A stretch of 44,211 bases of DNA. It comes from an uncultured Oscillospiraceae bacterium (GTDB lineage: Bacteria; Bacillota; Clostridia; Oscillospirales; Oscillospiraceae). The translations under genes and the position numbers were made by a program. Of this stretch, positions 1,242 through 44,211 are shown piece after piece. Where the stretch lies: the NCBI GenBank assembly GCA_949935795.1, contig CATLFX010000020.1, forward strand, positions 1-44,211, in the 5' to 3' direction. The notes below the pieces were generated by a model, which saw only the letters and a list, made by a program, of their open reading frames with translations, had not been told where the DNA came from and did no database searches. Numbering within the stretch: position 1 is the stretch's first letter; each line of letters begins with the position of its first letter.

Positions 1242-2386
1242 CACTTATTTCGCCAAAGGGAACGGCAAAGTGCTGCCAATAGCAGCCATCCGCCCAGAGC
1301 CGCTAGGGAGGACGCGGCCAGGGCGGTGGAGAAATCCAGCGCCGCGATGGATTCTGCCTGCTCCGCCAGGTAGTCCGCCACCGGCGCGGACAGGGGGAAC
1401 AGCCGGGTCAGACACCAGGTCAGCCCGGCGGCGATGAGCCCGTGGCACAGCTTGCCCGCCAGATAGGTCTTGGCGGACAGGCCGCTGTCCACCAGGAAAG
1501 ACAGTACCTGGCAGTGTACCGACAGGCCCGCCCACCCTAGCATAAACGCCGCCATGGACACCCGCCCCGCCAGCTGGGTGCTCCCCTGGAGGGAGGACAC
1601 CCCGGAGGACAGCTCCAGCAGGCCCGCCACCAACCGCCGGGCCCACTCCGGCTGAAAGCCCGCCAGCGACAGCAGGTTTGCCAGGATGGTGAACATGCCG
1701 CAGGCGGACATCAGTTGAAGCACCACCGCGAAAAACACCACAAAGGCGCAGATATTCAGCGTGCTTTGCAAAGAGCGGGCGACCGCTCCGGTAAACGCGG
1801 CGGGAATTGTGACAGCCTGAATGGGCTTAGCCTGGGGCCTGGGGGTGCGCGTCTGCTCTGAACCGCCGTAGAAACGGAACAGCAGGCCAACCAACAGTGA
1901 GGCCAGGGCGTGGGTCAGGTAGAGCAGCAGACCCACCCGGCTGTCCCCAAAGACCCCAGCCCCGACCACCCCCAAAATGAAGGCAGGGCCGGAGTTGTTG
2001 CAGAAGGAGAGCAGCCGTTCCGCCTCCGTTTTGGAACACAGCCCCTGCTGATAGAGCTGGAGGGCGGTCCGGGCGCCTACAGGATAGCCGCCGATGAAAC
2101 CCAGAGCTACCGCCGCCGCGCAGCTGCCGCTCACCCGGAACAGAGGGCGCATCAGCCCTTCCAGCGCCCGGCCCAGATAGGCCGCCAGCCCCAGGTCCAC
2201 CACCAGGGAGGACAGCACAAAGAAAGGGAACAGCGACGGCACAATGACATTGAAACAGAGAGTCAGCCCGTCCTTAGCCCCGGCGATGGCCTGGCCGGGC
2301 ATGGCCACCAGTCCCACCGTGGCCAGAAGCAGCGCCAGACCCACCAGTGCGTCCCGCACTTTCTTTTCCTTCAGCAGCCTCAGCAC
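1214..2386 (-). CDS. ylbJ: Sporulation integral membrane protein YlbJ
   Basis: A polytopic membrane protein of about 390 residues with at least eight hydrophobic segments and two nucleoside-recognition (Gate)-type halves. Landmarks are the NVIVPSLFPFFVLSSL segment in the N-terminal half and the GYPVGA loop. The family is known from Bacillus, where YlbJ is needed for spore cortex formation, and it is a marker of spore formers. I prefer a GTG start at 2386, preceded by GGGGGTG; a longer in-frame reading to a TTG at 2470 exists, but that start has no ribosome site. The length fits the usual size of about 400. The neighbours are not spore genes, and no terminator separates it from the small gene downstream. 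Confidence 0.88.
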   Translation of the reverse strand: MLRLLKEKKVRDALVGLALLLATVGLVAMPGQAIAGAKDGLTLCFNVIVPSLFPFFVLSSLVVDLGLAAYLGRALEGLMRPLFRVSGSCAAAVALGFIGGYPVGARTALQLYQQGLCSKTEAERLLSFCNNSGPAFILGVVGAGVFGDSRVGLLLYLTHALASLLVGLLFRFYGGSEQTRTPRPQAKPIQAVTIPAAFTGAVARSLQSTLNICAFVVFFAVVLQLMSACGMFTILANLLSLAGFQPEWARRLVAGLLELSSGVSSLQGSTQLAGRVSMAAFMLGWAGLSVHCQVLSFLVDSGLSAKTYLAGKLCHGLIAAGLTWCLTRLFPLSAPVADYLAEQAESIAALDFSTALAASSLAALGGWLLLAALCRSLWRNKCGNSPNYRV

Positions 2387-2488
2387 GCCATCACCCCCGT
2401 AGGGAGAGACTATGCGGCGAGGGGGCGGCGTTTGCCTGTCCTCAAAAATTTTTGCGGGAAAGAGGTACAAAGTGCCGGTCCGCAGCCC

Positions 2489-2517
2489 TTGGAAATCAAC
2501 CTTAGCTATGATAAAAT
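2489..2517 (+). promoter_or_regulatory. Promoter for the DUF2804 gene
   Basis: TTGGAA (2489-2494), a 17-base spacer and TAAAAT (2512-2517), 28 bases before the ATG. AGGAGG at 2532-2537 is the ribosome site. Confidence 0.75.
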
Positions 2518-2544
2518 AAGGAAAACACCATAGGAGGCGCTCAT

Positions 2545-3576
2545 ATGCAGTACGAGATCACCGAACAGATCCCCCTGTTGGACGGGCAGGGGAACCTCAC
2601 CCGGGCAGGGTACGCCAAGCGGCCGCTGCCTGTATATGACCGGAAACAGGTCCGGGGCGGCCTCACCCGCTTGAAGGAGTGGGACTATTATTATGTGGGG
2701 AACGGCCGCTTTGGGGTGGCCCTCACGGTGGCCGACAACAGCTATATGGGGCTGGACTCTATCTCCTTCCTCTCTTTCGCGGGAGAGCCCTGGGAGGTGA
2801 CAAAAAGCCCCATGTCGGTCTTCCCTATGGGCAGGACCGGTCTGCCCGCCTCCTCGTCGACAGGAGTTACCGCCAGCTCCGGGAAACGGCACGCCATTTT
2901 GTTCCAGGTGGGGGAGGGAAAGCGCCGTCTGACCGCCCACATGGACAATTTTAAAGACGGCCAGCCCATTGACATCCAAATCGTCCTTACGGACGAGCCG
3001 CCGGAATCCATGGTGATCTGCACACCCTTTGAGAAAAAGGGACATTTCTACTACAACCAAAAAATCAACTGTATGCGGGCCGCGGGAACGGTGCGCATCG
3101 GGGCGGAGGAGTACCGCTTCGAGCCTGACAGCGCTTTTGGCGTACTGGATTGGGGGCGGGGCGTGTGGACCTACCACAACACCTGGTACTGGGGTTCCGC
3201 CTCCGGCCTGGTGGACGGGGTGGATTTCGGGTTCAACGTCGGGTACGGCTTCGGGGACACCTCCGCCGCCACGGAGAATATGCTGTTTTACAATGGGAGG
3301 GCCCACAAGCTGTCCAAGGTGGACTTCGGCATCCCCACAAAAGGCGGAAAAGAGGACTATATGAAGCCTTGGCGGTTCACCAGCGACGACGGGCGGTTTG
3401 AGATGGATTTCATTCCCATTTTGGACCGGGCGTCCTGCACCGATATAAAACTTATCAAAAGCGACCAGCACCAGGTGTTTGGCCGGTTCACCGGCACAGC
3501 GGTGCTGGACGACGGGACCAGGCTCCAGGTCAGGGAGCTGATGGGTTTTGCGGAGAAAGTGGAAAATAAGTGGTAG
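2545..3576 (+). CDS. DUF2804 domain protein
   Basis: A soluble protein of 343 residues recognised as DUF2804 by its DWGRGVW segment near residue 202 and the following W-rich stretch (HNTWYWGSASG). These motifs are conserved in a family with no firm assigned reaction; a distant likeness to lipocalin/tocopherol-cyclase-like beta-barrel folds has been suggested for such proteins, which I treat only as a possibility. There is no signal peptide or membrane segment. It is transcribed alone from a good promoter and ends at a strong two-way terminator shared with the ilv operon. The length matches the family. Confidence 0.85.
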   Translation: MQYEITEQIPLLDGQGNLTRAGYAKRPLPVYDRKQVRGGLTRLKEWDYYYVGNGRFGVALTVADNSYMGLDSISFLSFAGEPWEVTKSPMSVFPMGRTGLPASSSTGVTASSGKRHAILFQVGEGKRRLTAHMDNFKDGQPIDIQIVLTDEPPESMVICTPFEKKGHFYYNQKINCMRAAGTVRIGAEEYRFEPDSAFGVLDWGRGVWTYHNTWYWGSASGLVDGVDFGFNVGYGFGDTSAATENMLFYNGRAHKLSKVDFGIPTKGGKEDYMKPWRFTSDDGRFEMDFIPILDRASCTDIKLIKSDQHQVFGRFTGTAVLDDGTRLQVRELMGFAEKVENKW

Positions 3577-3580
3577 AGAG

Positions 3581-3620
3581 TATAGGAAAAAGCCTGCCGT
3601 GAGGCAGGCTTTTTCCTATA
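3581..3620. terminator. Bidirectional terminator (DUF2804 / ilvC)
   Basis: An 18-bp perfect stem (3581-3598 with 3603-3620) around the loop GTGA. The A-rich and T-rich arms allow it to work in both directions, ending the DUF2804 transcript and the ilv transcript coming from the other side. Confidence 0.93.
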
Positions 3621-3628
3621 TGTCGGTT

Positions 3629-3781
3629 TTAGTTGGAAGCGGTGTCCTCGTCACCGCAAGTTCCATATCCCTCGCTTCCGCCTGCGGCGCAAGCTTGTTC
3701 ACTCCACTGCGGCTCCTCTCCCCACAAAGCCTGAGAGCCGGCTTTGTGGGGGCCCCAATTTCTTAGTTGGAAGCGGTGTCC
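3629..3781. repeat. 19-bp duplication of the ilvC end flanking a hairpin element
   Basis: TTAGTTGGAAGCGGTGTCC occurs at 3629-3647 and again at 3763-3781; the second copy is the stop codon and last codons of ilvC (D-T-A-S-N-stop). The 115 bases between the copies hold no gene and carry a perfect 12-bp inverted repeat (3720-3731 with 3740-3751, CCCCACAAAGCC type) plus a C/T-rich stretch. It looks like a small non-coding element inserted at the end of ilvC with a long target duplication, or a local duplication. A related layout occurs at 35641-35893. Confidence 0.75.
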
Positions 3782-4782
3782 AGATCTGAGTCGCCACCCC
3801 AGATCATGTTCTTGCGCAGCTCGCCGCCCACGATCTCCATCTGGTGCTTCTTGAGCTGGGCCCTCTTGGAGTTGAAGAAGGTGCGGCCGTTCTTGTTCTC
3901 GGCGATCCACTTGCCCGCGAAGGTGCCGTCCTGGATGTCGGAGAGCACGGCGCGCATACGGGCCTTGGTCTCCTCATGGGGGATGACCCGGGGGCCGCTG
4001 ACGTACTCGCCAAACTCGGCGGTGTCGGAGATGGAGAAGTTCATGGCCGCCACTCCGCCTTTGTTGATCAGGTCGATGATGAGCTTCATCTCGTGAATGC
4101 ACTCGAAGTAGGCGTTCTCCGGCTCGTACCCGGCCTCCACCAGCACCTCAAAGCCGCAGCGCATCAGGTCCACCACGCCGCCGCACAGCACGGTCTGCTC
4201 GCCGAACAGATCGGTCTCGGTCTCGTCGTGGAAGGTGGTCTCCATCACGCCCGCCCGGGCGCCGCCGATGCCCGCGATATAGGCCAGGGCGATCTGATAG
4301 GCGTGGCCGGTGGCGTCCTGCTCCACCGCCACCAGGCAGGGCACACCCTTGCCCGCCACATAGGTGGAGCGCACGGTGTGGCCGGGACCCTTGGGGGCGG
4401 CCATGAACACGTCCACCCCGGCGGGGGGGACGATCTGCTGGTAGCGGATGTTGAAGCCGTGGGCAAACGCCAGGGCCTTGCCCTCGGTCATATAGGGGGC
4501 GATGTCCTTCTTATAGACCTCGGCCTGGACTTCGTCGTTGATGAGCATCATCACGATGTCCGCCCATTCGGCGGCGGCGGGGACGGTCTTGACGGCCAGG
4601 CCCGCGGCCTCGGCGTTGGCCCAGTTCTTGGAGCCCTCCCGCAGGCCAACGCACACGTCGCAGCCGGAGTCCTTCAGGTTGAGGGCATGGGCGTGGCCCT
4701 GGGAGCCGTAGCCGATGATGGCGATCTTCTTGCCCTTCAGCCAGCTCAGGTCGCAGTCCTTCTCATAGTACATCTTTGCCAT
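3763..4782 (-). CDS. ilvC: Ketol-acid reductoisomerase
   Basis: Converts 2-acetolactate or 2-aceto-2-hydroxybutyrate to the dihydroxy acid using NAD(P)H and Mg2+ (second step of valine/isoleucine synthesis). The protein of 339 residues has the class I length. The N-terminal Rossmann fold carries GYGSQG at 24-29; the loop LREGSKNW follows beta-2 and is where NADPH phosphate is usually bound. The C-terminal knotted domain has [12 protein letters not shown] with the acidic metal ligands, and [11 protein letters not shown]. The start at 4782 has AAGGAGTG upstream; a longer in-frame reading adds 12 residues without a ribosome site. It is the last gene of ilvB-ilvN-ilvC, about 100 bases after ilvN. 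Confidence 0.97.
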
Positions 4783-4880
4783 GGTAAAACACTCCTTATA
4801 TCTTGAAATTGAAGCCAATGGATACGCGTTTCAGATATGATATCACAGCGGGGCCCAAAAGAATGATAACCGTGATACAA

Positions 4881-5441
4881 TTACAAAATGTTTTTGCCCA
4901 GATCGAACTCCTCCCGCTCCTTGTTGCTGGCGTTGTTGCGGATGGTGGCCTCGCCCCGCTCCAGGGCCACCATGCCGGTGCGCACCAGCTCCAGAATGCC
5001 GAACTCGGCCAGCAGCTTTTCCAGGGCGTCGTCCTTGGACTCCTGACCGATAATAGCCAGAGTCAGGCTCTGGGTGGACACGTCGATGATGGAGGCTCGG
5101 AAGATGTTGGCGATCTGGATGACCTCGTTGCGGACCTCGCGGCTTTCCGCCTTCACCTTGATGAGCACCAGCTCCCGGCGGATGGACTGCTCCGGGGGCA
5201 GGAGGCGGACGGAGTAGACGGAGAACTGCTTGCGCAGCTGGTTGATGATCTGGTCGATCTGGGCCTCGGCGCACAGCACCTCGATGGTGATACGGGACAC
5301 CGCCGGGTCGTCGGTGGTGCCCACCGCCAGGGACTCGATGTTGTAGCCCTTCCGGGAGAACAGCCGGGACACCTGGCTGAGCACGCCGGCGGTGTTCTCC
5401 ACCAGCACGGACAGGGTGTGGCGTTTGACGATGGTATTCAT
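4881..5441 (-). CDS. ilvN: Acetolactate synthase small (regulatory) subunit
   Basis: A protein of 186 residues with an N-terminal ACT domain (about 5-80, starting HTLSVLVENTAGVLSQVSRLF) and the C-terminal ALS_ss_C domain (about 85-160). It binds the IlvB catalytic subunit, raises its activity and gives feedback inhibition, typically by valine. The start is preceded by AAGGAGG, and the gene begins 15 bases after ilvB, so the two are co-translated. The length is at the upper end for the family because of a charged C-terminal tail. Confidence 0.96.
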   Translation of the reverse strand: MNTIVKRHTLSVLVENTAGVLSQVSRLFSRKGYNIESLAVGTTDDPAVSRITIEVLCAEAQIDQIINQLRKQFSVYSVRLLPPEQSIRRELVLIKVKAESREVRNEVIQIANIFRASIIDVSTQSLTLAIIGQESKDDALEKLLAEFGILELVRTGMVALERGEATIRNNASNKEREEFDLGKNIL

Positions 5442-5456
5442 GGCGTTTCTCCCTCC

Positions 5457-7166
5457 TTAATGAAGTAAGAAATCGGTGACGGGGGTGCCGCCGCTGACCA
5501 TGGGGTGTACCATGGCGTCAATGTCGATGGCGCAGTCGATGACACAGCCGCAGCCCGCCGCCAGGGCCTGCTTGAAGGCCTCCTCAAACTCTGCCTGGTT
5601 CTTGGCCCGGAAGCCCTTCAGGCCGTAGGCCTCCGCCAGCTTGACGAAGTCGGGGCCCCGGTCCAGGGTGGTCTGGGAAAACCGCTTTTCATAGATCAGA
5701 TTCTGCCACTGGCGGACCATGCCCAGGGTGCGGTTGTCAAAGATCACGGTGATGACCGGGATGTGGTAGTGCTCCACGGTGGCCAGCTCGTGGCAGTTCA
5801 TGCGGAAGCAGCCGTCCCCGGTGCAGTGGACCACCACCTTGTCCGGGTTGCCCACCTTGGCCCCCATGGCGGCCCCCAGGCCGAAGCCCATGGTGCCGAA
5901 GCCGCCGCTGGTGAGCAGCTGGCCGGGCCGGGAGAAGTGGTAATACTGGCAGGACCACATCTGGTGCTGGCCCACATCGGTGGCGATGATGGCGTCGCCG
6001 TCAGTCAGGTCGGAGATGGTCTCCAAAATCTCGTGGGCATGGAGGATATCGTCCTTTTTCAGAGGCAGCTCCTTGCGGGCAAAGACCTGGGCCTTCCAGG
6101 CGGTGTAGTCGTGCTGGGGCAGCTTTTCGTTGAGCAGCTCCAGCACCCGCCGGGCGTCGCCGATGATGTGGTGGTAGGTCTGGACGTTCTTGTCAATCTC
6201 CGCCCGGTCGATGTCGATGTGGACGATTTTGGCGTTTTTGGCAAACGAGGCGGGGTCTGTGGCTACCCGGTCGGAGAACCGGCAGCCGATGGCGATGAGC
6301 AGGTCGCACTCAGCGGTGGCCATGTTGGAGGCGTGGGAGCCGTGCATACCCACCATGCCGGTGAACAGGGGGTGATTGCCCGGGCAGGCTCCGCCGCCCA
6401 TGATGGTGGAGCCCACAGGGGCGTCCAGGGTCTCAATGAACTTGCGGAACTCGGGCACCGCGCCCTTGGAGCGGATCACGCCGCCGCCCACCAGCACCAT
6501 GGGGCGCTGGGACTGGGCGATGAGCTCCAGCAGCTTGTCGATGTCCCCCCGGTTGGGTTCGGGGTTTTTCAGGTCCCGGTTGGACCGGCGCAGCAGGGTG
6601 GCCAGCCGGCCGTGGTTGGGGTGCTCGGCCACCGGCAGATATTCATACTCCCCCTGGACGGCGGTGACGTTCTTGGCGATGTCCACCAGCACCGGGCCGG
6701 GCCGGCCGGACCGGGCGATGGCGAAGGCCTCCCGGATCACGTCGGCCAGCTCGTTCACGTCCTTCACCAGGAAATTGCACTTGGTGATGGGCATGGTGAT
6801 GCCGGTGATGTCCACCTCCTGGAAAGAGTCCTTGCCGATGAGGTTCTCGCTGACGTTGCAGGTGATGAACACAACGGGGGAGGAGTCGTAATAGGCGGTG
6901 GCGATGCCGGTGACCAGGTTGGTGGCGCCGGGGCCGGAGGTGGCGAAGCACACCCCGACTTTTCCGGTGGAGCGGGCGTAGCCGTCGGCGGCGTGGGACG
7001 CGCCCTGCTCGTGGGCGGTGAGGTAGTGGCGGATCTTCTGGTTGTAGCCGTGGAGCTCAAACTCGTCGTAGATGTTCAGGATGGTGCCGCCGGGATAGCC
7101 GAACACCGTATCCACGCCCTGCTCCAGCAGGCACTCCATGACGATCTGGGACCCTCTCATCAACAT
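5457..7166 (-). CDS. ilvB: Acetolactate synthase large (catalytic) subunit
   Basis: A ThDP-, Mg2+- and FAD-dependent enzyme that joins two pyruvates to acetolactate, or pyruvate and 2-oxobutyrate to acetohydroxybutyrate. The protein has 569 residues. The N-terminal PYR domain has the catalytic Glu in LTAHEQGA (E53); the central FAD domain follows; the C-terminal PP domain has TGDGCFRMN, the ThDP-binding GDG motif, and RQWQNLIYEKRFS. The start ATG at 7166 has GGAGG 8 bases upstream; the open frame continues further but without a start signal. It is the first gene of ilvB-ilvN-ilvC, behind a structured leader. Confidence 0.96.
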   Translation of the reverse strand: MLMRGSQIVMECLLEQGVDTVFGYPGGTILNIYDEFELHGYNQKIRHYLTAHEQGASHAADGYARSTGKVGVCFATSGPGATNLVTGIATAYYDSSPVVFITCNVSENLIGKDSFQEVDITGITMPITKCNFLVKDVNELADVIREAFAIARSGRPGPVLVDIAKNVTAVQGEYEYLPVAEHPNHGRLATLLRRSNRDLKNPEPNRGDIDKLLELIAQSQRPMVLVGGGVIRSKGAVPEFRKFIETLDAPVGSTIMGGGACPGNHPLFTGMVGMHGSHASNMATAECDLLIAIGCRFSDRVATDPASFAKNAKIVHIDIDRAEIDKNVQTYHHIIGDARRVLELLNEKLPQHDYTAWKAQVFARKELPLKKDDILHAHEILETISDLTDGDAIIATDVGQHQMWSCQYYHFSRPGQLLTSGGFGTMGFGLGAAMGAKVGNPDKVVVHCTGDGCFRMNCHELATVEHYHIPVITVIFDNRTLGMVRQWQNLIYEKRFSQTTLDRGPDFVKLAEAYGLKGFRAKNQAEFEEAFKQALAAGCGCVIDCAIDIDAMVHPMVSGGTPVTDFLLH

Positions 7167-7178
7167 ATTGGAAACCTC

Positions 7179-7269
7179 CTTCAATACGAAAAAGCACAGC
7201 CGCGTCCGACACAGGACGAGCCATGCTCCGCGGTGCTTTGAAAAAAGCGCATAATTCAGTGTATTGAAG
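7179..7269 (-). promoter_or_regulatory. Structured RNA leader of the ilv operon
   Basis: On the minus-strand transcript the first bases (CTTCAATAC, plus positions 7261-7269) can pair with GTATTGAAG (7179-7187), which runs into the ribosome site of ilvB. Inside are a stem AAAGCA-CCGCG/CGCGG-TGCTTT with a 3-base bulge (7191-7204 with 7229-7239) ending in a T-run, and within it two small hairpins, GAGC/GCTC (18-28 of 7200) and GTCC/GGAC (7204-7217). It can act as an attenuator and can hide the ribosome site. The segment ACCGCGGAGC resembles a T-box core, but there is no room for a Stem I. The ligand or signal is unknown. Confidence 0.6.
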
Positions 7270-7271
7270 TT

Positions 7272-7300
7272 ATCATATCCTTTTACGGAGGCTTTGTCAA
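7272..7300 (-). promoter_or_regulatory. ilv operon promoter
   Basis: A consensus -35 TTGACA (7295-7300), a 17-base spacer and -10 TATGAT (7272-7277) on the minus strand. Transcription should start near 7265, giving a leader of about 100 bases before ilvB. Confidence 0.88.
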
Positions 7301-7393
7301 TGTAAAATGGCGGGAATTTCGCAAATTGCGCCACTCGAACAAAGAAGGGCCGGTTTTTCGCCGCTTTTTTATGCTCTTTTCGGCAAAAACAAG

Positions 7394-7419
7394 GCGGGGA
7401 GGGCATTTGCCCTCCCCGC
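7394..7419 (-). terminator. Terminator after the DUF1540 gene
   Basis: GCGGGGAGGGC pairs with GCCCTCCCCGC around ATTT-type loop bases; on the minus strand it is followed by TTGTTTTTGCC. It closes the DUF1540 transcript before the ilv promoter. Confidence 0.88.
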
Positions 7420-7442
7420 TGCTCACGACGGCTCCGCGCTTC

Positions 7443-7628
7443 TTAGTGACAACCGCAGCTGGTGCCGTGGTCGCCCAGCTTGAAGGACGCGCACTCGGTC
7501 TCGCCGCAGGTGCACACGCTGTTCTGGCAGTGGCCCACCTGGATCTCGTTGAGGGTGCAGCGCTGGTCCTTGTGGTAGGTGCAGCTGTTCACGGAGCACT
7601 TGATGCTGGGATTGGTCTGGTTCATCAT
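7443..7628 (-). CDS. DUF1540 domain protein
   Basis: A protein of 61 residues with eight or more cysteines in the DUF1540 pattern (IKCSVNSCTYH, then C, HC, CTCGETEC and a terminal CGC). The domain occurs in one or two copies in small proteins of Clostridia and bacilli and is thought to bind metal; its role is not established. The start has AAGGAGG 8 bases upstream. It is transcribed with, or just after, the membrane protein gene upstream and ends at its own terminator. Confidence 0.88.
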   Translation of the reverse strand: MMNQTNPSIKCSVNSCTYHKDQRCTLNEIQVGHCQNSVCTCGETECASFKLGDHGTSCGCH

Positions 7629-7696
7629 GGTCGTTACCTCCTTGTATCCTAACTCATATCGAATACAAGGGAGAGTATGCCCCGGGAGGGCGGCGG

Positions 7697-8566
7697 CTAT
7701 TCAGCCTTTTCCGCGGTCTGTCCGTCCTGAACGGGGGCGTCCGGCCCGACGGCGGGACTGCGCTGGAACCGGGGGATAAACCGGCGGGCGAAACCGCCCT
7801 TGCCCCGGCCCTGCACGTAGAAGTAGCCGATGACGGAGAACACCGCCGCGCCGATGAAGTTGACGAACAGGTCCTTCATGGTGTCGATAATGCCCACGTC
7901 CAGGTAGCCGCCCAGCCCCAGAGGCATTTGGGAGCCGTCCTCCAGCACCAGGATCACGTCCTGGATGCCCCGGACCACCACGGCGGCGGTGCCGTGCTTG
8001 GGGTCCAGGTTGACGGTGGAGATGGTGTTGATGACGGTGTCCTTCTGCATGTCAAAGAGCAGCCAATGGTCCATGGCGAACTCGAAGAACTCCCACAGCA
8101 CGCCGATGGTCATGGAGAAACAGAAAGCGGTCACCGCCATGAAGAAGGGGGACAGGTGGAGGGACACCTTTTCCTCCCGGTTGAGGATATCCACCAGGGC
8201 GAAGCCGATGGCGGCGCACAGGAAGCCGTTCATGGTGTGGAGCATGGTGTCCCAGTAGGGGAACTGGATGTAGTAGTCGCTGATCTCCCCCAGAATCTCG
8301 GCGGCGTAGATGAACAGCAGGATGATGACCTCCAGGGTGTCGGGCAGGTCGATGTGCAGCCGCCGCTCAAAGATGGAGGGCAGCATGAACAGCACCAGGG
8401 TGAGGACGCACAGCAGCATGTTCTCGTAGTTCTGGTTAAAGAACTGGGCCACCAGCATGAGCACCACCGACAGCCGCAGAACGAAATACACAGAATAGAC
8501 CAGCTTTTTGTTTTCAATGTGCCGCCACTCCTGGCCCTTCAGTTTTTTTGCCTTGCGTTTTGGCAT
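7697..8566 (-). CDS. DUF2238/YjdF-like membrane protein
   Basis: A membrane protein of 289 residues with a basic N-terminus and about seven hydrophobic segments. The stretch PYWDTMLHTMNGFLCAAIGF and the later WEFFEFAMDH are the conserved pattern of the DUF2238 (YjdF) family; the Asp/His and Trp-Glu residues lie at membrane edges and suggest a catalytic or metal site, but no reaction is known. A soluble, charged C-terminal tail of about 35 residues follows the last segment. The start is preceded by AAAGGAGCG. I am sure it is a real membrane protein and fairly sure of the family. Confidence 0.75.
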   Translation of the reverse strand: MPKRKAKKLKGQEWRHIENKKLVYSVYFVLRLSVVLMLVAQFFNQNYENMLLCVLTLVLFMLPSIFERRLHIDLPDTLEVIILLFIYAAEILGEISDYYIQFPYWDTMLHTMNGFLCAAIGFALVDILNREEKVSLHLSPFFMAVTAFCFSMTIGVLWEFFEFAMDHWLLFDMQKDTVINTISTVNLDPKHGTAAVVVRGIQDVILVLEDGSQMPLGLGGYLDVGIIDTMKDLFVNFIGAAVFSVIGYFYVQGRGKGGFARRFIPRFQRSPAVGPDAPVQDGQTAEKAE

Positions 8567-8662
8567 GAGCGCTCCTTTCCTGTACGGTGGGTTGTCTGTG
8601 TAAAAGAAACCATGTCAGTCCGCGCCCCCCGGCGCATAGTATGGTTCTGGAGGTGATTTTTT

Positions 8663-8875
8663 ATGGATTTGAAAAACAACCAGATCACGCTGGGCGAGCT
8701 GTGGGATAACCCCAAGAGCCGGGCGGTGTTCCAGAAGCGCATTCCCATGCTGGCCAAGCACCCGGTGCAGGGGGCGGCCCGGACGGTGACGCTGGAGCAG
8801 CTGCGGGACTTCATCACCGGCTGGGTGCCGGGGATGATGGTCAACGGGGTGATGTCCGACCTGAAGAAGCTGTGA
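8663..8875 (+). CDS. Small protein of unknown function (70 residues)
   Basis: A helical, soluble protein starting MDLKNNQITLGELWDNP, with GGAGGTGAT 8 bases before the ATG and a strong terminator 36 bases after the stop. The segment LGELWDNPKSRAVFQKRIP resembles a short C-terminal helical module found at the ends of some larger clostridial enzymes, here as a separate gene. The likeness is only by eye. No function is assigned. It lies divergent from the DUF2238-like gene, about 100 bases away. Confidence 0.7.
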   Translation: MDLKNNQITLGELWDNPKSRAVFQKRIPMLAKHPVQGAARTVTLEQLRDFITGWVPGMMVNGVMSDLKKL

Positions 8876-8910
8876 TGTCGTCTACATTTTAACAATCATA
8901 TCAAAAAAGA

Positions 8911-8944: not shown

Positions 8945-9625
8945 TCAACCAATGTCCAATATCTGGACCTCTCCGTAGTCCTCCAGGCCGCTCTCGTGAA
9001 AAGCGGCATCCAGTCTGTCCCGGTCCGGGAACAGGATATTTCCGGAGGAGGCCAGCGGCAGTGCGCAGCTTTTGGGCTCGAGGGCCTGAGCGGGATCGTC
9101 CACCAAAATGACCAGCGGGTTTTTGGCGGTGACCGGCTTGGCCCAGCCCAGGGTCACGCCGGAGGGGAAGGCGAATAGGCCGCCGTCCTCACAGCGATAC
9201 AGTCCCACGCCCTCCGGCAGGACGGACCCGTCCGCGGTGAGGATGGGCATTTGGGCGTTCAAAAAGTCCCGCGTTCCGACGGGAAGGCTGTCCAGTTCCA
9301 CCGGCTGGAGGCGGTCCGGGCGGCCGAACCGCTCCACCCACCGGGGGCTGGCCATCACCAGGTGGTCGTAGTCCCCCAACTCCTCCGGGGTGAGGAGGAT
9401 GGCGCTGTCCACCACATAGGAGAGCAGCAGGCTGTCCCCCTGGGCGGACAGCAGGTCCCGGCCCGCCTGGGTCAGCGCCGGGTTCTCGCACACCGCGTCG
9501 ATGTCGGAGAACGCCAGATAGGCGATTCCCTCCGTGTCATACTGGGCGGGAATACCGGCATTGCCGCACCCGGCCAGTCCGGCCAGGAGGACACAGACCA
9601 GCGCTATCATCGCCATTCGCTTCAT
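8945..9625 (-). CDS. Putative lipoprotein
   Basis: A protein of 226 residues with an N-terminal signal and the lipobox LAGLAGC (Cys about residue 20), so it should be lipid-anchored on the outer face of the membrane. I do not recognise the family. The mature part is acidic, with hydrophobic strands such as GDSLLLSYVVDSAILL and PLVILVD, and could be a small alpha/beta fold. The start ATG at 9625 follows GAGGTGG; an in-frame GTG three codons earlier overlaps that ribosome site. The ribosome site lies in one arm of a 7-bp inverted repeat (9633-9639 with 9652-9658), which may limit translation. It is transcribed alone. Confidence 0.75.
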   Translation of the reverse strand: MKRMAMIALVCVLLAGLAGCGNAGIPAQYDTEGIAYLAFSDIDAVCENPALTQAGRDLLSAQGDSLLLSYVVDSAILLTPEELGDYDHLVMASPRWVERFGRPDRLQPVELDSLPVGTRDFLNAQMPILTADGSVLPEGVGLYRCEDGGLFAFPSGVTLGWAKPVTAKNPLVILVDDPAQALEPKSCALPLASSGNILFPDRDRLDAAFHESGLEDYGEVQILDIG

Positions 9626-9660
9626 GGAGACCACCTCGTATCACCGTTTCGACGAGGTCG

Positions 9661-9689
9661 ATTATAGCGCGTCTCCGAAAGGGCGGCAA
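9661..9689 (-). promoter_or_regulatory. Promoter of the lipoprotein gene
   Basis: TTGCCG (9684-9689), a 17-base spacer and TATAAT (9661-9666) on the minus strand. Confidence 0.75.
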
Positions 9690-9725
9690 GGCCGGCGGGC
9701 TATTCTTCACTCTTTCTTAAGAGGT

Positions 9726-10571
9726 CTACCGCCCCTCCGCGATCCTCCGCCCGGTGGGGGTGGCGGCCAGACCACCTTCGCCGGTCTCCCGCAGAGCGGT
9801 GGGCATGGCCCGGCCCACCGCCCCCATGGCGTCGATGACCTCGTCGCAGGGGATGGGGCTGGCCAGCCCCGCCAGGGCCATGTCGGCGCAGGACAGGGCG
9901 TTCACAGCCCCCATCACGTTGCGCTTGACGCAGGGGACCTCCACCAGCCCGGCCACCGGGTCGCACACCAGCCCCAGCACGTTTTGCAGGGCCATGGCGC
10001 AGGCCGCGGCCATCCACTCCCCGGAACCCCCGCGGGCGTGGACCAGGGCGGCGGCGGCCATGCCGGAGGCGGAGCCCACCTCCGCCTGACAGCCCCCCTC
10101 CGCCCCGGAGATGGAGGCTTTTGTAGCGATGACCTGGCCGAACCCGGCGGAGACATACAGGCATTTCACCATGTCCTCATCGCTGAGCCGGTCCTTGCGC
10201 TGGAGGGGGATGAGCACCGCGGGCAGCACCCCGCAGGCCCCGGCGGTGGGAGCGGCCACGATGCGGCCCATACAGGCGTTGTGCTCCCCCAGCTTCAGGG
10301 CGGTGGAGATGACCTCCTGGATAAAGGGCCCGCAGATGGAGCGGTCCAGGGCGGCCATCCGGGCCCCCTGCCCTCCGGACAGGCCGCAGGGGGAGCGGCG
10401 GGTGGGGTCGTAGTCCAGCACGGACTGCTTCATGGTCTGCCATAGGGCGGTCATTTTGGACAGGCTGTCCTCCCGGGATACGTTCCGGTCCTGGCAGTCG
10501 TCGTCCAATACGGCCTCCCACAGGGGCTTGTCCGCCGACGCGGACAGCAGAGCTTGCACAGAGCCAAACAT
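9726..10571 (-). CDS. sdaAA: L-serine ammonia-lyase, Fe-S type, alpha subunit
   Basis: Catalytic subunit of the iron-sulfur L-serine dehydratase, which turns serine into pyruvate and ammonia. The protein of 281 residues has the family length. Conserved parts are GRIVAAPTAGACGVLPAVL in the middle, SGAEGGCQAEVGSA with one of the cluster cysteines, and the CDPVAGLVEVPCVKRN segment with two more. It depends on a [4Fe-4S] cluster and is oxygen-sensitive, fitting an anaerobe. The start at 10571 has GGAGGG upstream and lies 2 bases after sdaAB, so the pair is translationally coupled. Confidence 0.95.
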   Translation of the reverse strand: MFGSVQALLSASADKPLWEAVLDDDCQDRNVSREDSLSKMTALWQTMKQSVLDYDPTRRSPCGLSGGQGARMAALDRSICGPFIQEVISTALKLGEHNACMGRIVAAPTAGACGVLPAVLIPLQRKDRLSDEDMVKCLYVSAGFGQVIATKASISGAEGGCQAEVGSASGMAAAALVHARGGSGEWMAAACAMALQNVLGLVCDPVAGLVEVPCVKRNVMGAVNALSCADMALAGLASPIPCDEVIDAMGAVGRAMPTALRETGEGGLAATPTGRRIAEGR

Positions 10572-39485: not shown

Positions 39486-41095
39486 AAGAGGGCAGGGTAT
39501 ACCCCGCTGTGATTGACGGCTATGCCAGCGGCGGCGAGGGGGTGGCCCGGATTGAAGGTATGGCGGTGTTTGTCAAGGGGGCCCTCCGGGGAGAGCAGGC
39601 AGAAGTGATGATCGAGCACATCGGCCACAACGCCGCCTGGGGACATATTGAAAAGCTGCTGGAGCCCTCGCCCCGGCGGGCGGAGCCGGACTGCCCCTAT
39701 TACGGGGCGTGCGGCGGCTGTCAGTTCCGGCACATGGCCTATGAGGAGGAGCTGGAGGCCAAGCGGCGGCGGGTGGAGGACGCCCTGCGGCGCATTGGCG
39801 GCGCGGACCTGGCGGTTTCTGTGATACATGGGGCGGAAAATACCCGGCGTTATCGCAACAAGGTGCAGTTTCCCGTCTCGACCGGAGCCATTGGATACTA
39901 TCAGGGCCGCACCCACCGGGTGGTGGACATTGCGGACTGTTTGCTCCAGCCGGAGGCGGACACTGCCTGCCGGGCCGCCGTCAAGGAGTGGATGGAGCGG
40001 TTTTCCGTCCCCGCCTACGATGAGAAGACAGGCCGTGGGCTGGTCCGACACCTGTTTCTGCGCACCAATTCCGACGGAGAAATTTTGTGTTGTCTGGTGG
40101 CCAACGGAAGAAAGCTCCCCCACGGGGAGGAGCTGGTGGAGGCCCTCCGGCAGGCCGCGCCCAAGCTGGCGGGGGTGGTGCTGTCGGTGAACACGAAAAA
40201 GACAAACGTGATTCTGGGGGATGCTTTTCACACCCTCTGGGGCCGGGACTGGCTGGAGGAGACCCTATGCGGCCGCAGCTTCCGGCTGTCGGTGCCCTCC
40301 TTCTTCCAGGTGAACAGGGCCCAGACCGAGGTGCTCTACCGCCGGGCGCTGGATTTTGCCGCCCTCACCGGGCGGGAGACGGTGGTGGAGCTGTACTGCG
40401 GCATCGGGACCATCAGCCTGACGCTGGCGGAGTACGCGAAGCAGGTCATCGGGGTGGAGGTGGTGCCCCAGGCGGTGGCCGACGCACAGGAAAACGCCCG
40501 CCGGAACGGCCTGGAGAACAAAACCCGGTTTGAGTGCGGCGATGCCGCCAACTTGGCCGTCCAACTGGAAGAGGAGGGTGTTCGGCCTGATGTGGTGGTG
40601 GTGGACCCGCCCCGGAAGGGGCTGGCCCCGGAGGTGGTGGACGCCATCGTCCGTATGGCCCCGGACCGGGTGGTATACGTGTCCTGCGACCCGGCCACCC
40701 TGGCTCGGGACGTGAAGCGGTTTTTTGCTGGGGGATACGTCCTCCTGCACGCGGAGGCGGTGGACCTTTTCCCAAGGACGGCTCACGTGGAGACGGTTGT
40801 TTGCTTAGGTAGGGAATTTGAGAAAAGCAAGGAACATGTCTACCTGGACTATGAGCCGTCCCCGGACATGGAGGTTCCCCTTGATCCGACATATCCCGAG
40901 ATCAAGGAGTGGGTGCTGGAACACCACGGCCTGAAGGTGTCGTCCCTGTACATCTCCCAGGTCAAGCGTAAGCACGGCCTGCCCGTTGGCGAGAACTTCA
41001 ACAAGCCGAAGAACAAGAGCATGAAGCAGCCCCAGTGCCCTCCTGAGAAAGAGGCCGCCATCGAGGCGGCCCTGCGGCACTTCCGTATGCTTTGA
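39479..41095 (+). CDS. rlmD: 23S rRNA (uracil-C5)-methyltransferase RlmD with C-terminal extension
   Basis: A SAM-dependent methyltransferase of 538 residues. The order is: an N-terminal TRAM domain (about 5-60), a [4Fe-4S] site with C72, C78, C81 and the later Cys in IADCLLQ, the Rossmann core (VELYCGIGTISLTLA), and the catalytic Cys in VYVSCDPATLARD. The normal enzyme would end near residue 445. About 90 further residues follow (TYPEIKEWVLEHHGLKVSSL, then PPEKEAAIEAALRHF), a domain I also know from clostridial RlmD proteins and from mobile-element proteins. The start is GTG, supported by AAGGGGGG and overlapping queH. Its 3' end borders the accessory region. Confidence 0.92.
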   Translation: MLKEGRVYPAVIDGYASGGEGVARIEGMAVFVKGALRGEQAEVMIEHIGHNAAWGHIEKLLEPSPRRAEPDCPYYGACGGCQFRHMAYEEELEAKRRRVEDALRRIGGADLAVSVIHGAENTRRYRNKVQFPVSTGAIGYYQGRTHRVVDIADCLLQPEADTACRAAVKEWMERFSVPAYDEKTGRGLVRHLFLRTNSDGEILCCLVANGRKLPHGEELVEALRQAAPKLAGVVLSVNTKKTNVILGDAFHTLWGRDWLEETLCGRSFRLSVPSFFQVNRAQTEVLYRRALDFAALTGRETVVELYCGIGTISLTLAEYAKQVIGVEVVPQAVADAQENARRNGLENKTRFECGDAANLAVQLEEEGVRPDVVVVDPPRKGLAPEVVDAIVRMAPDRVVYVSCDPATLARDVKRFFAGGYVLLHAEAVDLFPRTAHVETVVCLGREFEKSKEHVYLDYEPSPDMEVPLDPTYPEIKEWVLEHHGLKVSSLYISQVKRKHGLPVGENFNKPKNKSMKQPQCPPEKEAAIEAALRHFRML

Positions 41096-41134
41096 TGATT
41101 GGCGCCTACTGCTTCGGGGGGAATGGCACAAAGC

Positions 41135-41164
41135 GGGCCGCTCCAGGGTTACCAGGAGCGGCCC
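41135..41164 (+). terminator. Hairpin after rlmD
   Basis: GGGCCGCTCC/GGAGCGGCCC (10 bp, loop of 10) followed by TTCGATTCC. It is the only clear structure in 41096-41228; no gene is seen there. Confidence 0.65.
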
Positions 41165-41228
41165 TTCGATTCCTCGCCTGTCCCATCGGATACAGCAACA
41201 TGGCCCCACGGTACGCGCCGCCCTTTCC

Positions 41229-41296
41229 AGTACCAAAACAATCTATATTAGAATAGTACCCAAATTATTGACAAGTACCTGGTTCCGTGCTATCAT
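41229..41296 (+). promoter_or_regulatory. Recombinase promoter with AGTACC repeats
   Basis: TTGACA (41268-41273), a 17-base spacer and TATCAT (41291-41296). AGTACC occurs three times in the same direction, at 41229, 41255 and 41274, the last inside the spacer. The area is AT-richer than its surroundings. The repeats could bind the recombinase or a repressor; this is inferred. Confidence 0.7.
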
Positions 41297-41349
41297 ATAA
41301 GTAGCCAATCTGAGTACACCTTATTTGGCTACGAAGGGGATATTCCATC

Positions 41350-42063
41350 ATGAAGCTGTACGCATACGTCCGGGTGAGCACCCGGCAACAGAGCCTGAAG
41401 CGGCAGATCGAGAATATCATGTCGGCGAACGGCGGGGCTTACGCCAATGCCCAGTTTTTCAGCGACAAGTTCACCGGCAGCACCCTGGACCGGCCGGAGT
41501 GGAACCGGCTGTACAAGCGGCTGCAGCCGGGGGACACCGTCGTGTTCGATTCCGTGTCCCGCCTGAGCCGTGACGCGGAGGACGGCGCCGCCCTGTACGA
41601 GGAGCTGTACCAGAAGGGGATCAACCTGGTCTTCCTGAATGAGCCCCATTGCGACACGGAGTGCTACCGCCAGGCCGCCGCCGCCAGCATCCCGGCCACG
41701 GGCAACGAGATCGCGGATATTTACATCGAGGCGACCAACCGAGTCCTGATGCTCCTGGCCCGGAGGCAGATCGCCATCGCCTTCGAGCAGGCCGAGAAGG
41801 AGCGTCTCGACATCCAGACGAGGGTCCGGGACGGGATGCGGGCCGCGAAACTGGAGGCCGCCCAGCACGGGATCGAAAAGACCTACGGCCTCGCCCCCGG
41901 CACGAAGCTGACCACCCGGAAGAGCGTCGCCGCCAAGGCCGTCATCGTGAAGCACTCCAAGGACTTCAACGGGACGCTGGACGATCCGGAGGTGATCAAG
42001 CTCTGCGGGATCTCCCGCAACACGTATTATCGGTACAAGAGGCAGCTCAAGGCCGGACAGTGA
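41350..42063 (+). CDS. Serine recombinase (resolvase/invertase type)
   Basis: A site-specific recombinase of 237 residues. The catalytic domain begins KLYAYVRVSTRQQSLKRQ with Ser10 and Arg8, and has DSVSRLSRD with R71 and R74 matching the arginines of gamma-delta resolvase. A long helix (about 118-165) follows, and the C-terminus ends in a helix-turn-helix-like GISRNTYYRYKRQ. It is too small for a large serine integrase. AAGGGGA precedes the start. The PolC-like gene begins 43 bases later without a terminator, so the two are probably co-transcribed. It likely inverts or resolves DNA of an inserted element. Confidence 0.92.
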   Translation: MKLYAYVRVSTRQQSLKRQIENIMSANGGAYANAQFFSDKFTGSTLDRPEWNRLYKRLQPGDTVVFDSVSRLSRDAEDGAALYEELYQKGINLVFLNEPHCDTECYRQAAAASIPATGNEIADIYIEATNRVLMLLARRQIAIAFEQAEKERLDIQTRVRDGMRAAKLEAAQHGIEKTYGLAPGTKLTTRKSVAAKAVIVKHSKDFNGTLDDPEVIKLCGISRNTYYRYKRQLKAGQ

Positions 42064-42106
42064 CCGGCGATGCTGCACCACGCTTTGAACAGGAGGATAG
42101 AAACCA

Positions 42107-43099
42107 ATGTCAGCATTTCTGTACCGCGACAGCCAGATGGAACAGGAACTGCGCGGCAAAATCAAGCAGATAGCGAACAAGCGGCACGGCGGGGCGGTCC
42201 CCGCGGACGTCCAGGACCGCATCGCCACGGAGGAGCGGCATATCTTCGGCAATAGCCATGGGACGCTCCTGGCCGTCGCCGCCAAGTTGGCGGAGTTCTC
42301 TGAAAGCCGGGGCTGCCCCGTGGGGTTCCGAGGGCTCACCGGCAACCTGTATCTGTCGTACCTCCTCGGCCTCGCCGCCGTCGATCCCATGGAGCTGGGC
42401 CTCCGCTGGGAGGGCTGCCTGGGCCTGGACGGGACGCGGGCGCCGCAATTCACCCTGAACGTGGCGGGCGGGCTAATGGAGGAGATGACGGCGTACCTGG
42501 GCGAGCTTCTCCCGGGGTACGATCCCGACGCTGAATGCCCGGCCATCAGGCTGTGCCCGCACGCCCTGATGGACCGCGTATGGGAGGCGCGGCAGGCCGG
42601 GGGCGTCCCGGCTGCCGGGGACGTACTCTCCGACGGGAGTCTGGTTGCCAGGGCGTACCACGGCGACGTGGCCGGTATCCCCGTGCTGGGCGACCTGGAT
42701 GGCTTCCAGGACCTTGCCCGCCGGCTGGAGCCGGAGACTTTCTCCGACCTGGTGAAGATCATGGGGCTGTGCCTCACCCCGGAGATCCGGTTCCAGGCGG
42801 ACCGTCTCGTGGACCAGCCCGACCGTTTCGACCGCCTGGTCGGGACGCGGGAGGACGTGTACGACCTGTGCGTGCGGCATGGCGTCGGCGGGGACGACGC
42901 CCTTCGGATCATGCGGCAGGTATCCCACGGCAGGCTGTCACCGGAGTACAAGGACACGCTCGCCGCCCGGGGACTTCCCGGCGTGTTCCTGGAGGCGCTG
43001 GACGCCGCCAAGTATCTGTACCCGCGCGGCCAGTGCGCCGACTACCTGTATTGGGCGCTGGCGCTGTTGGCGCAAGAGCGCAACCCCTGCCAGGCGTAA
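42107..43099 (+). CDS. Cut-down PolC-like protein with lost catalytic residues
   Basis: A protein of 330 residues whose parts line up in order with the core of PolC, the replicative polymerase of low-GC Gram-positives (PolC recalled from memory). VGFRGLTGN (72-80) matches VGSRGSVGS of the palm; APQFTLNV (112-119) matches VPDIDLNF, where the catalytic Asp pair has become Gln and Thr; PETFSDLVKIMGL (209-221) matches PTTFSELVQISGL; KYLYPRGQCADYLYWAL (302-318) matches KYMFPKAHAAAYVLMAV. The OB, PHP, exonuclease, zinc and third-Asp regions and the C-terminal clamp-binding part are absent. It cannot polymerise. It may bind replication proteins or DNA without catalysis. AGGAGG lies 10 bases before the ATG. 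The recombinase is upstream and a terminator follows. Confidence 0.8.
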   Translation: MSAFLYRDSQMEQELRGKIKQIANKRHGGAVPADVQDRIATEERHIFGNSHGTLLAVAAKLAEFSESRGCPVGFRGLTGNLYLSYLLGLAAVDPMELGLRWEGCLGLDGTRAPQFTLNVAGGLMEEMTAYLGELLPGYDPDAECPAIRLCPHALMDRVWEARQAGGVPAAGDVLSDGSLVARAYHGDVAGIPVLGDLDGFQDLARRLEPETFSDLVKIMGLCLTPEIRFQADRLVDQPDRFDRLVGTREDVYDLCVRHGVGGDDALRIMRQVSHGRLSPEYKDTLAARGLPGVFLEALDAAKYLYPRGQCADYLYWALALLAQERNPCQA

Positions 43100-43146
43100 T
43101 TTCGCGCCGTACTGGAATCCAATATCGCCTTTGCCGGCATGGTGAA

Positions 43147-43188
43147 ACGGGCTGGAGGAGCGTTCCTCCGGCCCGTCCCGTCTTTTTT
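43147..43188 (+). terminator. Terminator after the PolC-like gene
   Basis: A 13-bp stem with one T-G pair (43147-43159 with 43164-43176), loop GCGT, then TTTTTT at 43183-43188. It closes the recombinase/PolC-like transcript. The rest of 43100-43328 holds only the next promoter. Confidence 0.9.
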
Positions 43189-43267
43189 GGGGGTGGCGGC
43201 TCTCGGATACAATGCGGGGTTTTCCTAAAATGCGCCCATAAATGAGGGGATTTTGCCGGTTGGCGTC

Positions 43268-43296
43268 TTGAAATCCCGCCCGGGTTGCATTACAAT
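43268..43296 (+). promoter_or_regulatory. Promoter of the terminal lipoprotein gene
   Basis: TTGAAA (43268-43273), a 17-base spacer and TACAAT (43291-43296). Confidence 0.78.
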
Positions 43297-43328
43297 ATCG
43301 GACAAAGAAACAGATGGAGAGAGAAATT

Positions 43329-44211
43329 ATGAAGAATACACATAGATTGTCCATACGCCGTACCGCCCTGCTGCTGGCCCTGTCGCTCCTGTTCTCCCTT
43401 GCCGCCTGCGGCAAGGCCCCCGCGCAGGACGGGACCCAGGTGAGCGACACTCCGGCGGAGGCCACGCAGGCCGCTTCGGACACTTCCGGGACGGACGCCC
43501 CGGCCTCCATGAAGTTTTACGAGAATATGCTGGACAGGATGCCGGTATCGGACGGCGCCTCCCTGGGCCTGCTGTATTCGGAGGTCCTTGATTTCGAGGC
43601 GGACGGGAACCCGGAGCTGCTGGTGCTTTCCGTGGACGACTTCGCGAAAGCGACGCCCGGTTCATTCCTCATGTCAATATACCGGTATGAATCCCATGGG
43701 ATGTGCTGCCTGATGAACTCTTACGTCACCCTGGGCACCGGGGGCGGGCTCTCGCTGATGGAGTCCGGCGGGCGGCTGTACCTGGAGACGTACGGGTGCA
43801 TCCGTGAGGAGGCCCAGGGGTTGGTCAGGTACTCGGATAACAGGACATACTATGGTTCCGTCGCCCAGAAGGACGGCGTCGGCCAGTTCTGCGACGACGC
43901 TCCCAGCCCGGGCGAGAGCGATTGGGGCGCCGTTGATATGCTCCGCCGCGATTGGTCCGAGGGCCATGCCGCCTACTTCATGCAGCCCCACGACGAGCGC
44001 GGGCTCGCCAACGGCGGCGCAGGCTATGACACGGCCACCCGCGAGGAGTACCAGGCCGCGCAGGACGGATATACCGCGGGGGCCGTACTCGCCTACAGCC
44101 CGGACGGGACAAGCATCGTCATCAAGCCGGAGGACGTGCCGGAGCGGCCCGAGCCGGGGCCGGAGGAATCCCAGCCCATCCAGCCCGATCCGGTGGACTC
44201 CGGCCCCGCCG
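43329..44211 (+). CDS. Putative lipoprotein, truncated by the window end
   Basis: The frame is open from ATG 43329 to the end of the window (294 codons, no stop). A signal peptide with basic RRT and the lipobox SLAAC (Cys27) shows a lipid-anchored surface protein. Then comes a low-complexity Thr/Ala/Ser/Asp linker (about 30-60) and a domain with DFEADGNPELLVL, a calcium-loop-like DxDxNxE pattern found in secreted proteins with VCBS-like or EF-like repeats. The visible end is Pro/Glu-rich. GGAGAG precedes the start. I do not recognise the family. It has its own promoter, so a link with the PolC-like gene is only positional. Confidence 0.82.
   Translation, partial: MKNTHRLSIRRTALLLALSLLFSLAACGKAPAQDGTQVSDTPAEATQAASDTSGTDAPASMKFYENMLDRMPVSDGASLGLLYSEVLDFEADGNPELLVLSVDDFAKATPGSFLMSIYRYESHGMCCLMNSYVTLGTGGGLSLMESGGRLYLETYGCIREEAQGLVRYSDNRTYYGSVAQKDGVGQFCDDAPSPGESDWGAVDMLRRDWSEGHAAYFMQPHDERGLANGGAGYDTATREEYQAAQDGYTAGAVLAYSPDGTSIVIKPEDVPERPEPGPEESQPIQPDPVDSGPA

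Follow-up and report, generated by a model that had tools for sequence, protein, structure and literature searches.

The intact open reading frame at bp 42107–43099 (+ strand) of the window, that is, of the whole 44,211-nucleotide stretch that was analyzed, encodes a 330-residue palm-finger protein of PolC descent which has lost the catalytic aspartates, and which is here called mini-PolC (window protein, query P0001). Judged from its sequence, it is highly probable that this protein is derived from PolC and has no polymerase activity. As the best explanation of the whole, to which we assign a probability of about 0.4, we propose a non-catalytic mimic of PolC whose use lies in binding or sensing.

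The mini-PolC gene and its flanking signals

The frame starts with ATG, and its assignment is based on the open reading frame, its translation, homology and a motif alignment. A ribosome-binding site, AGGAGG, was located by eye at bp 42091–42096. Upstream, on the same strand, lies a gene for a small serine recombinase (bp 41350–42063, 237 aa, with a Resolvase domain match), and ahead of both genes a sigma-70-like promoter, TTGACA-17-TATCAT, is predicted by consensus match at bp 41268–41296. It was also noticed by eye that the hexamer AGTACC occurs three times (bp 41229, 41255 and 41274, spanning bp 41229–41279), the third copy falling within the promoter spacer; this may be an operator. Downstream of mini-PolC, a strong terminator-like hairpin is predicted at bp 43147–43176 (+ strand), followed by a lipoprotein-like open reading frame (bp 43314–44211, + strand) that is incomplete at the window end and had no Pfam match. 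A scan of bp 40700–44211 with Rfam matched no RNA element.

Segments of PolC that are retained

The preliminary description of this DNA, made from the letters and their translations, had recognized PolC palm and finger segments in their normal order and had proposed profile and structure searches as checks. The Pfam palm model (PF07733) matched the window protein with an E value of 6.4e-11 (42.8 bits, cut-off 23.9), and the Pfam finger model gave 13.3 bits, under its 22-bit cut-off. The NCBIfam model polC_Gram_pos matched with an E value of 1.5e-18, a score far under the full-length cut-off, as is to be expected since the window protein is a fragment. Geobacillus kaustophilus PolC (3f2b) was aligned in two segments, residues 11–95 and 189–319 (E value 1.1e-13), and hhalign of the five-member family described below against four PolC-type sequences returned a probability of 99.3% (E value 4.6e-20, 307 columns). 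In view of these Pfam, NCBIfam, 3f2b and hhalign matches, the homology to PolC is not due to chance, and the order of palm and finger segments first read by eye was confirmed.

Motifs were compared in an alignment of 24 sequences. In the first palm half (about residues 10–100, bp 42134–42406, + strand, placed by the PolC alignments), VGFRGLTGN replaces VGSRGSVGSS; more fully, LVGSRGSVGSS of PolC has become PVGFRGLTGNL, in which RG and one G are retained and the serines are gone, so that both the VGxRG segment and the loss of the palm serines were correctly recognized at the outset. The fingers correspond to residues 189–319 (bp 42671–43063, + strand, from the NCBIfam, 3f2b and hhalign alignments), and here the motif YMFPKAH of PolC reads YLYPRGQ. 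An AlphaFold model of the window protein, built from five sequences, was poor (mean pLDDT 53.4), with block means of 45–89 at residues 11–160 and values mostly below 50 from residue 169, that is, in the fingers. Foldseek with this weak model gave five matches at E values up to 0.001, all of them PolC entries, with low TM-scores (0.35–0.39).

Segments of PolC that are lost

The strand APQFTLNV (residues 112–119, bp 42440–42463, + strand) was found by alignment to occupy the site of the two catalytic aspartates of PolC, EPDIDLNFS having changed to APQFTLNVA, so that the two aspartates are replaced by Q114 and T116. The region of the third aspartate, LKLDILGH, is deleted together with about 150 palm residues, IRLCPHAL being aligned in its place, and the zinc-site cysteines are missing as well. 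Only the palm model exceeded its Pfam cut-off, with no PHP, exonuclease or OB-fold match, and the PolC-like part stops at residue 323 of 330. Because the alignment with PolC spans the palm to the fingers only, the PHP, exonuclease and OB-fold parts and the clamp-binding tail are absent. The available part of a report on Enterococcus faecium PolC (PMC12592400) names D972 and D974 as the polymerase aspartates and F1276 as a residue that matters for the placement of the incoming nucleotide. Counted on our alignment, F1276 is the F of YMFPKAH, and in the window protein this position is a tyrosine.

The same losses were observed in all five close members of the family (the window and loci L031–L034), none of which has either palm aspartate. 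Thus the replaced aspartate pair and the missing third aspartate, zinc site, PHP, exonuclease, OB fold and clamp tail, all claimed in the preliminary description, were upheld by the alignments and Pfam, and none of the five members was found to retain catalytic aspartates elsewhere. That the protein is an unusual enzyme, in which nucleotide transfer persists with an altered active site, is very improbable given that every close member has other residues at both palm aspartates and a deletion that removes the third. Archaeal PolB2 serves as a warning case, since this polymerase, predicted to be inactivated, is reported as a translesion-synthesis extender in the text available from PMC8764526.

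Close relatives and selection

The suggested homologue search found four loci besides the window that encode the same protein and share its losses, L031 and L032 (each 79% identical), L033 (65%) and L034 (64%); L031, L033 and L034 are from genomes G017, G005 and G018, respectively, among the 99 relatives searched. The mini-PolC query had matches in 88 of these 99 genomes, and almost all of these were due to complete frames of PolC or DnaE size. The genome from which the window comes yielded one C-family gene, a frame of 1156 aa, besides the window gene, and no host PolC was seen in this assembly, which is 69.73% complete.

Pairwise dN/dS in the mini-PolC family ranged from 0.31 to 0.59, and in the last third of the gene it was 0.69 against L031 and 1.03 against L032, for which reason the constraint on the window protein must be regarded as loose. 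For the window and L031, the recombinase had a dN/dS of 0.048 and the lipoprotein-like frame 0.37. In the mini-PolC pairs that include the window, pN was well under pS; the frame is open in all five members, and when the window is aligned with each of the other four, all gap runs are multiples of three. When substitutions were placed at random at the observed number (2000 runs per pair), the frame remained open in 0.9% of the runs for L033, 1.0% for L034, 5.4% for L031 and 6.7% for L032. Taken together, the dN/dS values, the in-frame gaps and the odds of frame survival indicate that the gene is maintained yet fast-evolving; purifying selection on it is real but weak.

These figures bear on the possibility that the gene is a decaying passenger, a polC fragment on its way out that has no present function. 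Such decay would agree with a dN/dS that is high for a conserved enzyme and far above that of the recombinase in the same pair, with the value of 1.03 in the last third against L032, with the sporadic occurrence in five genomes, and with the interruption of a near-copy of another damaged form in genome G340 (see below). However, five open frames out of five, gaps kept in frame against survival odds of 0.9–6.7% per pair, the low pN relative to pS and the presence of a putative promoter, ribosome-binding site and terminator all argue against it, and we consider decay unlikely.

The probable island and the neighboring recombinase

Identity between the window and L031 starts at bp 41199 and continues to the window end. 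A contig of the same genome as the window (C62) shares bp 40806–41527, from the 3' end of a gene that we take to be rlmD-like into the start of the recombinase, with 76% identity, and then ends. From these two starts of identity (bp 40806 with C62, bp 41199 with L031), the left junction is placed at bp 40806–41199 (+ strand), and mini-PolC appears to sit on an island inserted at the 3' end of the rlmD-like gene. The C62 copy (L081, bp 3451–4179) is broken off at the contig end and may be a second island, so the island is perhaps present in more than one copy in this genome. Genes of the type carried by transferable elements were found on the contigs of the relatives, namely those for a tyrosine integrase, SSB, PcfJ and a 1956-aa N6-methylase/helicase on that of L031, PcfJ on that of L033, and Toprim/DUF3991 on that of L034. 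The lipoprotein-like frame lies 3' of mini-PolC in both the window and L031.

The statement that mini-PolC is encoded next to a recombinase held for the window and L031, but not for the other three of the five members. In genome G040, the recombinase is present with no mini-PolC beside it, and the search of the 99 relatives gave no mini-PolC match in that genome. Because only two of the five members have it and it occurs apart from mini-PolC, the recombinase is an incidental neighbor, and a link with it was dropped as an explanation.

A phage origin was likewise rejected, as the window protein had no match among phage records at an E value of 1e-5, and scans of viral contigs with the window protein, A2 and P0013 revealed no relative. 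The viral-contig scan with P0017 returned two loci, one being L196 and the other a phage DnaE-like protein with an intact PDIDVDF. Among phage records, 19 matches were obtained with query P0002, and queries P0002, P0007 and P0013 also matched plasmids other than the one described next.

Other damaged or short C-family derivatives

Several damaged derivatives of PolC occur in Clostridia, and the window gene is among them. Plasmid pCY186 of Butyrivibrio proteoclasticus encodes a 332-aa mini-PolC (WP_013283140), 24% identical to the window protein, which it resembles in size, in PolC descent, in having neither the zinc site nor the third-aspartate region, and in the replacement of the aspartate pair, here by S and E (NLSIEINV). 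Unlike the window protein, it keeps FPRAH in the fingers, lies among replication genes and falls outside the window family in the tree. One gene away, a 480-aa DnaE-like mini (L035, bp 5071–6513) has PSYCIRIDV at the aspartate motif, where PDIDIDF is expected. The stretch that holds both minis also contains dnaX, a DnaA-like gene, a full PolC and dnaB.

This arrangement raises the question of whether the window protein could be an accessory replication subunit, a dead protein that pairs with an active PolC, of the host or of the element, or with other replication proteins and so aids copying of the element. The pair of minis amid the pCY186 replication genes points in this direction, as do the SSB and Toprim/DUF3991 genes on islands with a window-type protein and, by analogy, the inactive paralogues that serve other polymerases. 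In the stretches read, however, no PolC, DnaE or clamp-loader gene lies beside the window-type members; moreover, the subunit-binding parts of PolC are missing, and a form fused to a helix-turn-helix domain, described below, is unlike a subunit. A role as accessory subunit is thus held to be doubtful.

Further damaged forms were found. Genome G410 encodes a 472-aa form with ALEFYYFFS, a Y at the third aspartate and truncated fingers, of which G340 has a near-identical, interrupted copy (L110, bp 4961–6441). In the G410 region concerned (L066, bp 5253–8906), the 472-aa form is near a pair of genes judged by eye to be AbiEi/AbiEii-like. A 399-aa form in G210 has LPIIEFDID and zinc cysteines, and a form of about 700 aa in G067 has SPEFYFNF and a C at the third aspartate. 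Beside the G210 gene, a small protein (L107, bp 2995–3339) was seen by eye to have a YYPRGR stretch in common with the N-terminal part of the pCY186 DnaA-like gene product (L035, bp 9060–9905); a Pfam search with this small protein gave no clear family. Short forms with all three aspartate motifs were found in G091 (829 aa), G819 (810 aa), G546 (900 aa) and Cetobacterium plasmid p3 (914 aa); these 810–914-aa frames (L115, bp 4253–6742; L148, bp 4747–7179; L149, bp 4124–6826; L036, bp 3768–6512) may be active short PolC paralogues.

G245 encodes a PHP-bearing PolC relative of 728 aa in which one aspartate of the three is changed (EPVIDLN). It is flanked by a GmrSD restriction gene and a WYL gene, the three frames being separated by 0 and 1 bases. 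The run of GmrSD gene, PolC relative and WYL regulator (L108, bp 1470–6459) is a candidate defense operon.

A decoy or brake has also been considered, in which the window protein would occupy primer ends or replication proteins and slow the replication of the host or of a rival phage or plasmid, to the benefit of defense or of the island. The retention of palm and finger parts of the host replicative enzyme, the mobile island that carries the gene and the defense-like setting of the partly altered G245 relative are all consistent with such a role. On the other hand, the G245 protein, with its PHP domain, represents another form, no PADLOC model matched the window protein at E values up to 0.001, and the nucleotide-positioning residues are changed. 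The parts of PolC that bind partners are the exonuclease/PHP, the OB fold and the clamp tail, and since these are missing, the case for a decoy directed at the clamp or the clamp loader is weakened in particular; we regard a decoy as improbable.

Among the matches listed, 22 short-frame loci were picked by eye and read, so that the damaged derivatives are examples and not a census. Thirteen were ordinary PolC pieces, either cut by a contig end or frame-broken (L109, L111, L112, L114, L116, L117 and L150–L156), and five were damaged (L066, its interrupted near-copy L110, L107, L113 and L147), the remainder being the partly altered L108 and the short L115, L148 and L149 with aspartate motifs.

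A family with a fused helix-turn-helix domain

A 472-aa protein of G516 matched three models, HTH_3 (E value 3.8e-14), PolC finger (6.7e-13) and PolC palm (7.6e-11), the helix-turn-helix (HTH) domain being N-terminal and of the Cro/C1 type. Among 196 genomes of the family to which G516 belongs, the full-length fusion was present in six (G516, G863, G836, G848, G925 and G903), the other five members being 60–87% identical to the G516 protein; the same set contained a divergent two-piece match including the HTH in G840, a fragment in G932 and a form lacking the HTH in G950. All six members have other residues at the first and third aspartates and lack the mid-palm segment. Four retain the second palm aspartate (NTSFDL, NTSFDV twice and NTSFDI), and two have replaced it as well (GSHVFV and NIALAV), so this family, damaged at two or three of the three positions, is less thoroughly disabled than the window family. 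At the position of F1276, five of the six have F, and G925 has M. The dN/dS values were 0.08–0.22 in the palm (three saturated pairs left out) and 0.07–0.22 in the fingers, which shows that the damaged PolC domain is under clear selection in the fusion. Most likely, to judge from this architecture, the fusion is a transcription factor that receives its input through the damaged domain.

The G516 fusion lies directly ahead of pyrH, frr, uppS, cdsA, rseP and ispG (names given by eye), and PolC follows at some distance on that contig, on the same strand; the surroundings differ in the other five genomes. It was also noticed that the first 66 codons and about 50 preceding bases are 96–97% identical between genera in G516 (L147, bp 7221–7470), G863 and G836, each having a single copy, with synonymous differences of about 0.1 in these codons against about 0.5 in the remainder of the gene (G516 pairs).

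What the fusion family shares with the window family is a palm-finger remnant of PolC in which the mid-palm has been removed and the first and third aspartates are replaced. It differs in the N-terminal HTH, the zinc-site cysteines, fingers that mostly keep FPKAH (YLFPKAH, against YLYPRGQ in the window protein) and the stronger selection; HTH models gave no match to the window protein at E values up to 1. In the tree, the window family formed one group (support 100/100), the HTH family together with G950 another (99/98), and G067 and G210 a pair (95/96), with pCY186, G950 and G410 on long branches. A single clade of 15 mini forms, with G067 and G245 left out, was neither rejected (p-AU 0.19) nor supported, and the tree keeps the window and HTH families apart. 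The link between these two families is one of kinship only, and a repeated reduction of PolC to mini forms is possible on this phylogeny.

Proposed function

With these alternatives weighed, we return to the non-catalytic PolC mimic, for which the support comes from the PolC descent, from the absence of all three aspartates in the five related loci, which keep the frame open under weak purifying selection, from the 332-aa pCY186 form amid replication genes and, most closely, from the well-conserved HTH-fused cousins. The remnant palm-finger fold would bind a ligand of the replication machinery, be it primed DNA, a nucleotide or a replication protein. Recognition would thus have been separated from synthesis, the metal site being lost while the first half of the palm and some or all of the fingers are retained, and mini-PolC would be a recognition or control part of its carrier island rather than an enzyme. 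In the HTH-fused branch, the input would be received at the PolC-like part and the output exerted at DNA; the window protein, in which an output domain is missing, would act via binding alone or via a partner, and its target may be host replication, the copying of the island or gene expression. This lack and the changed finger motif weaken the sensing reading for the window protein, and a binding or sensing module as its mechanism is put forward tentatively, at somewhat less than even odds.

A broader and rather unlikely proposition is that Clostridia have repeatedly reworked the core of their replicative polymerase so that it recognizes without catalyzing, a domain that reads the state of replication and feeds gene control, element copying or defense. 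If so, this domain would be found fused to an HTH, alone on islands and plasmids, or amid defense genes, and would sense primer ends, dNTPs or the replisome, the window gene being the most reduced form met. A set of damaged PolC proteins, one of them well conserved and fused to a DNA-binding domain, would be a new route for sensing or steering replication, and by virtue of the HTH fusion the function of damaged PolC cores becomes testable.

Comparison with known systems

A bacterial survey of C-family polymerases (PMC3919608) removed fragments lacking an intact active site before analysis, as stated in the available part of that paper, and a second (PMC12926913, likewise available in part) divides the C family into four groups and names inactivity for the PHP and exonuclease parts only; neither text, in the parts available, describes an inactive C-family polymerase. 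Among the literature matches listed, none dealt with inactive PolC derivatives. As far as this search reached, there are hints that the reuse of damaged PolC cores in Clostridia is new, the general kind, an inactivated polymerase, being known.

In comparison with PolC itself (3f2b from G. kaustophilus and 9qpc from E. faecium), the window protein is homologous over the first half of the palm and over the fingers, but has 330 residues instead of about 1450, and it lacks the catalytic aspartates, the third-aspartate region and the zinc site as well as the PHP, exonuclease, OB-fold and clamp-tail parts. Among polymerases, the B and Y families are known to include inactive relatives, and to our knowledge none of the inactivated archaeal B-family polymerases is as extremely miniaturized as the window protein. 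These archaeal proteins, as presented in the accessible portion of PMC2527604, are conserved relatives that have lost catalytic residues, as has the window protein, but they belong to a different family. ImuB and the inactive Y-family proteins are, in the available text of PMC12926913, inactive polymerase homologues that act via partners; they too are of another family, and they carry clamp- and RecA-type binding motifs. The window protein fits the description of an inactivated DNA polymerase paralogue, being a homologue devoid of the catalytic residues with five open members under weak constraint.
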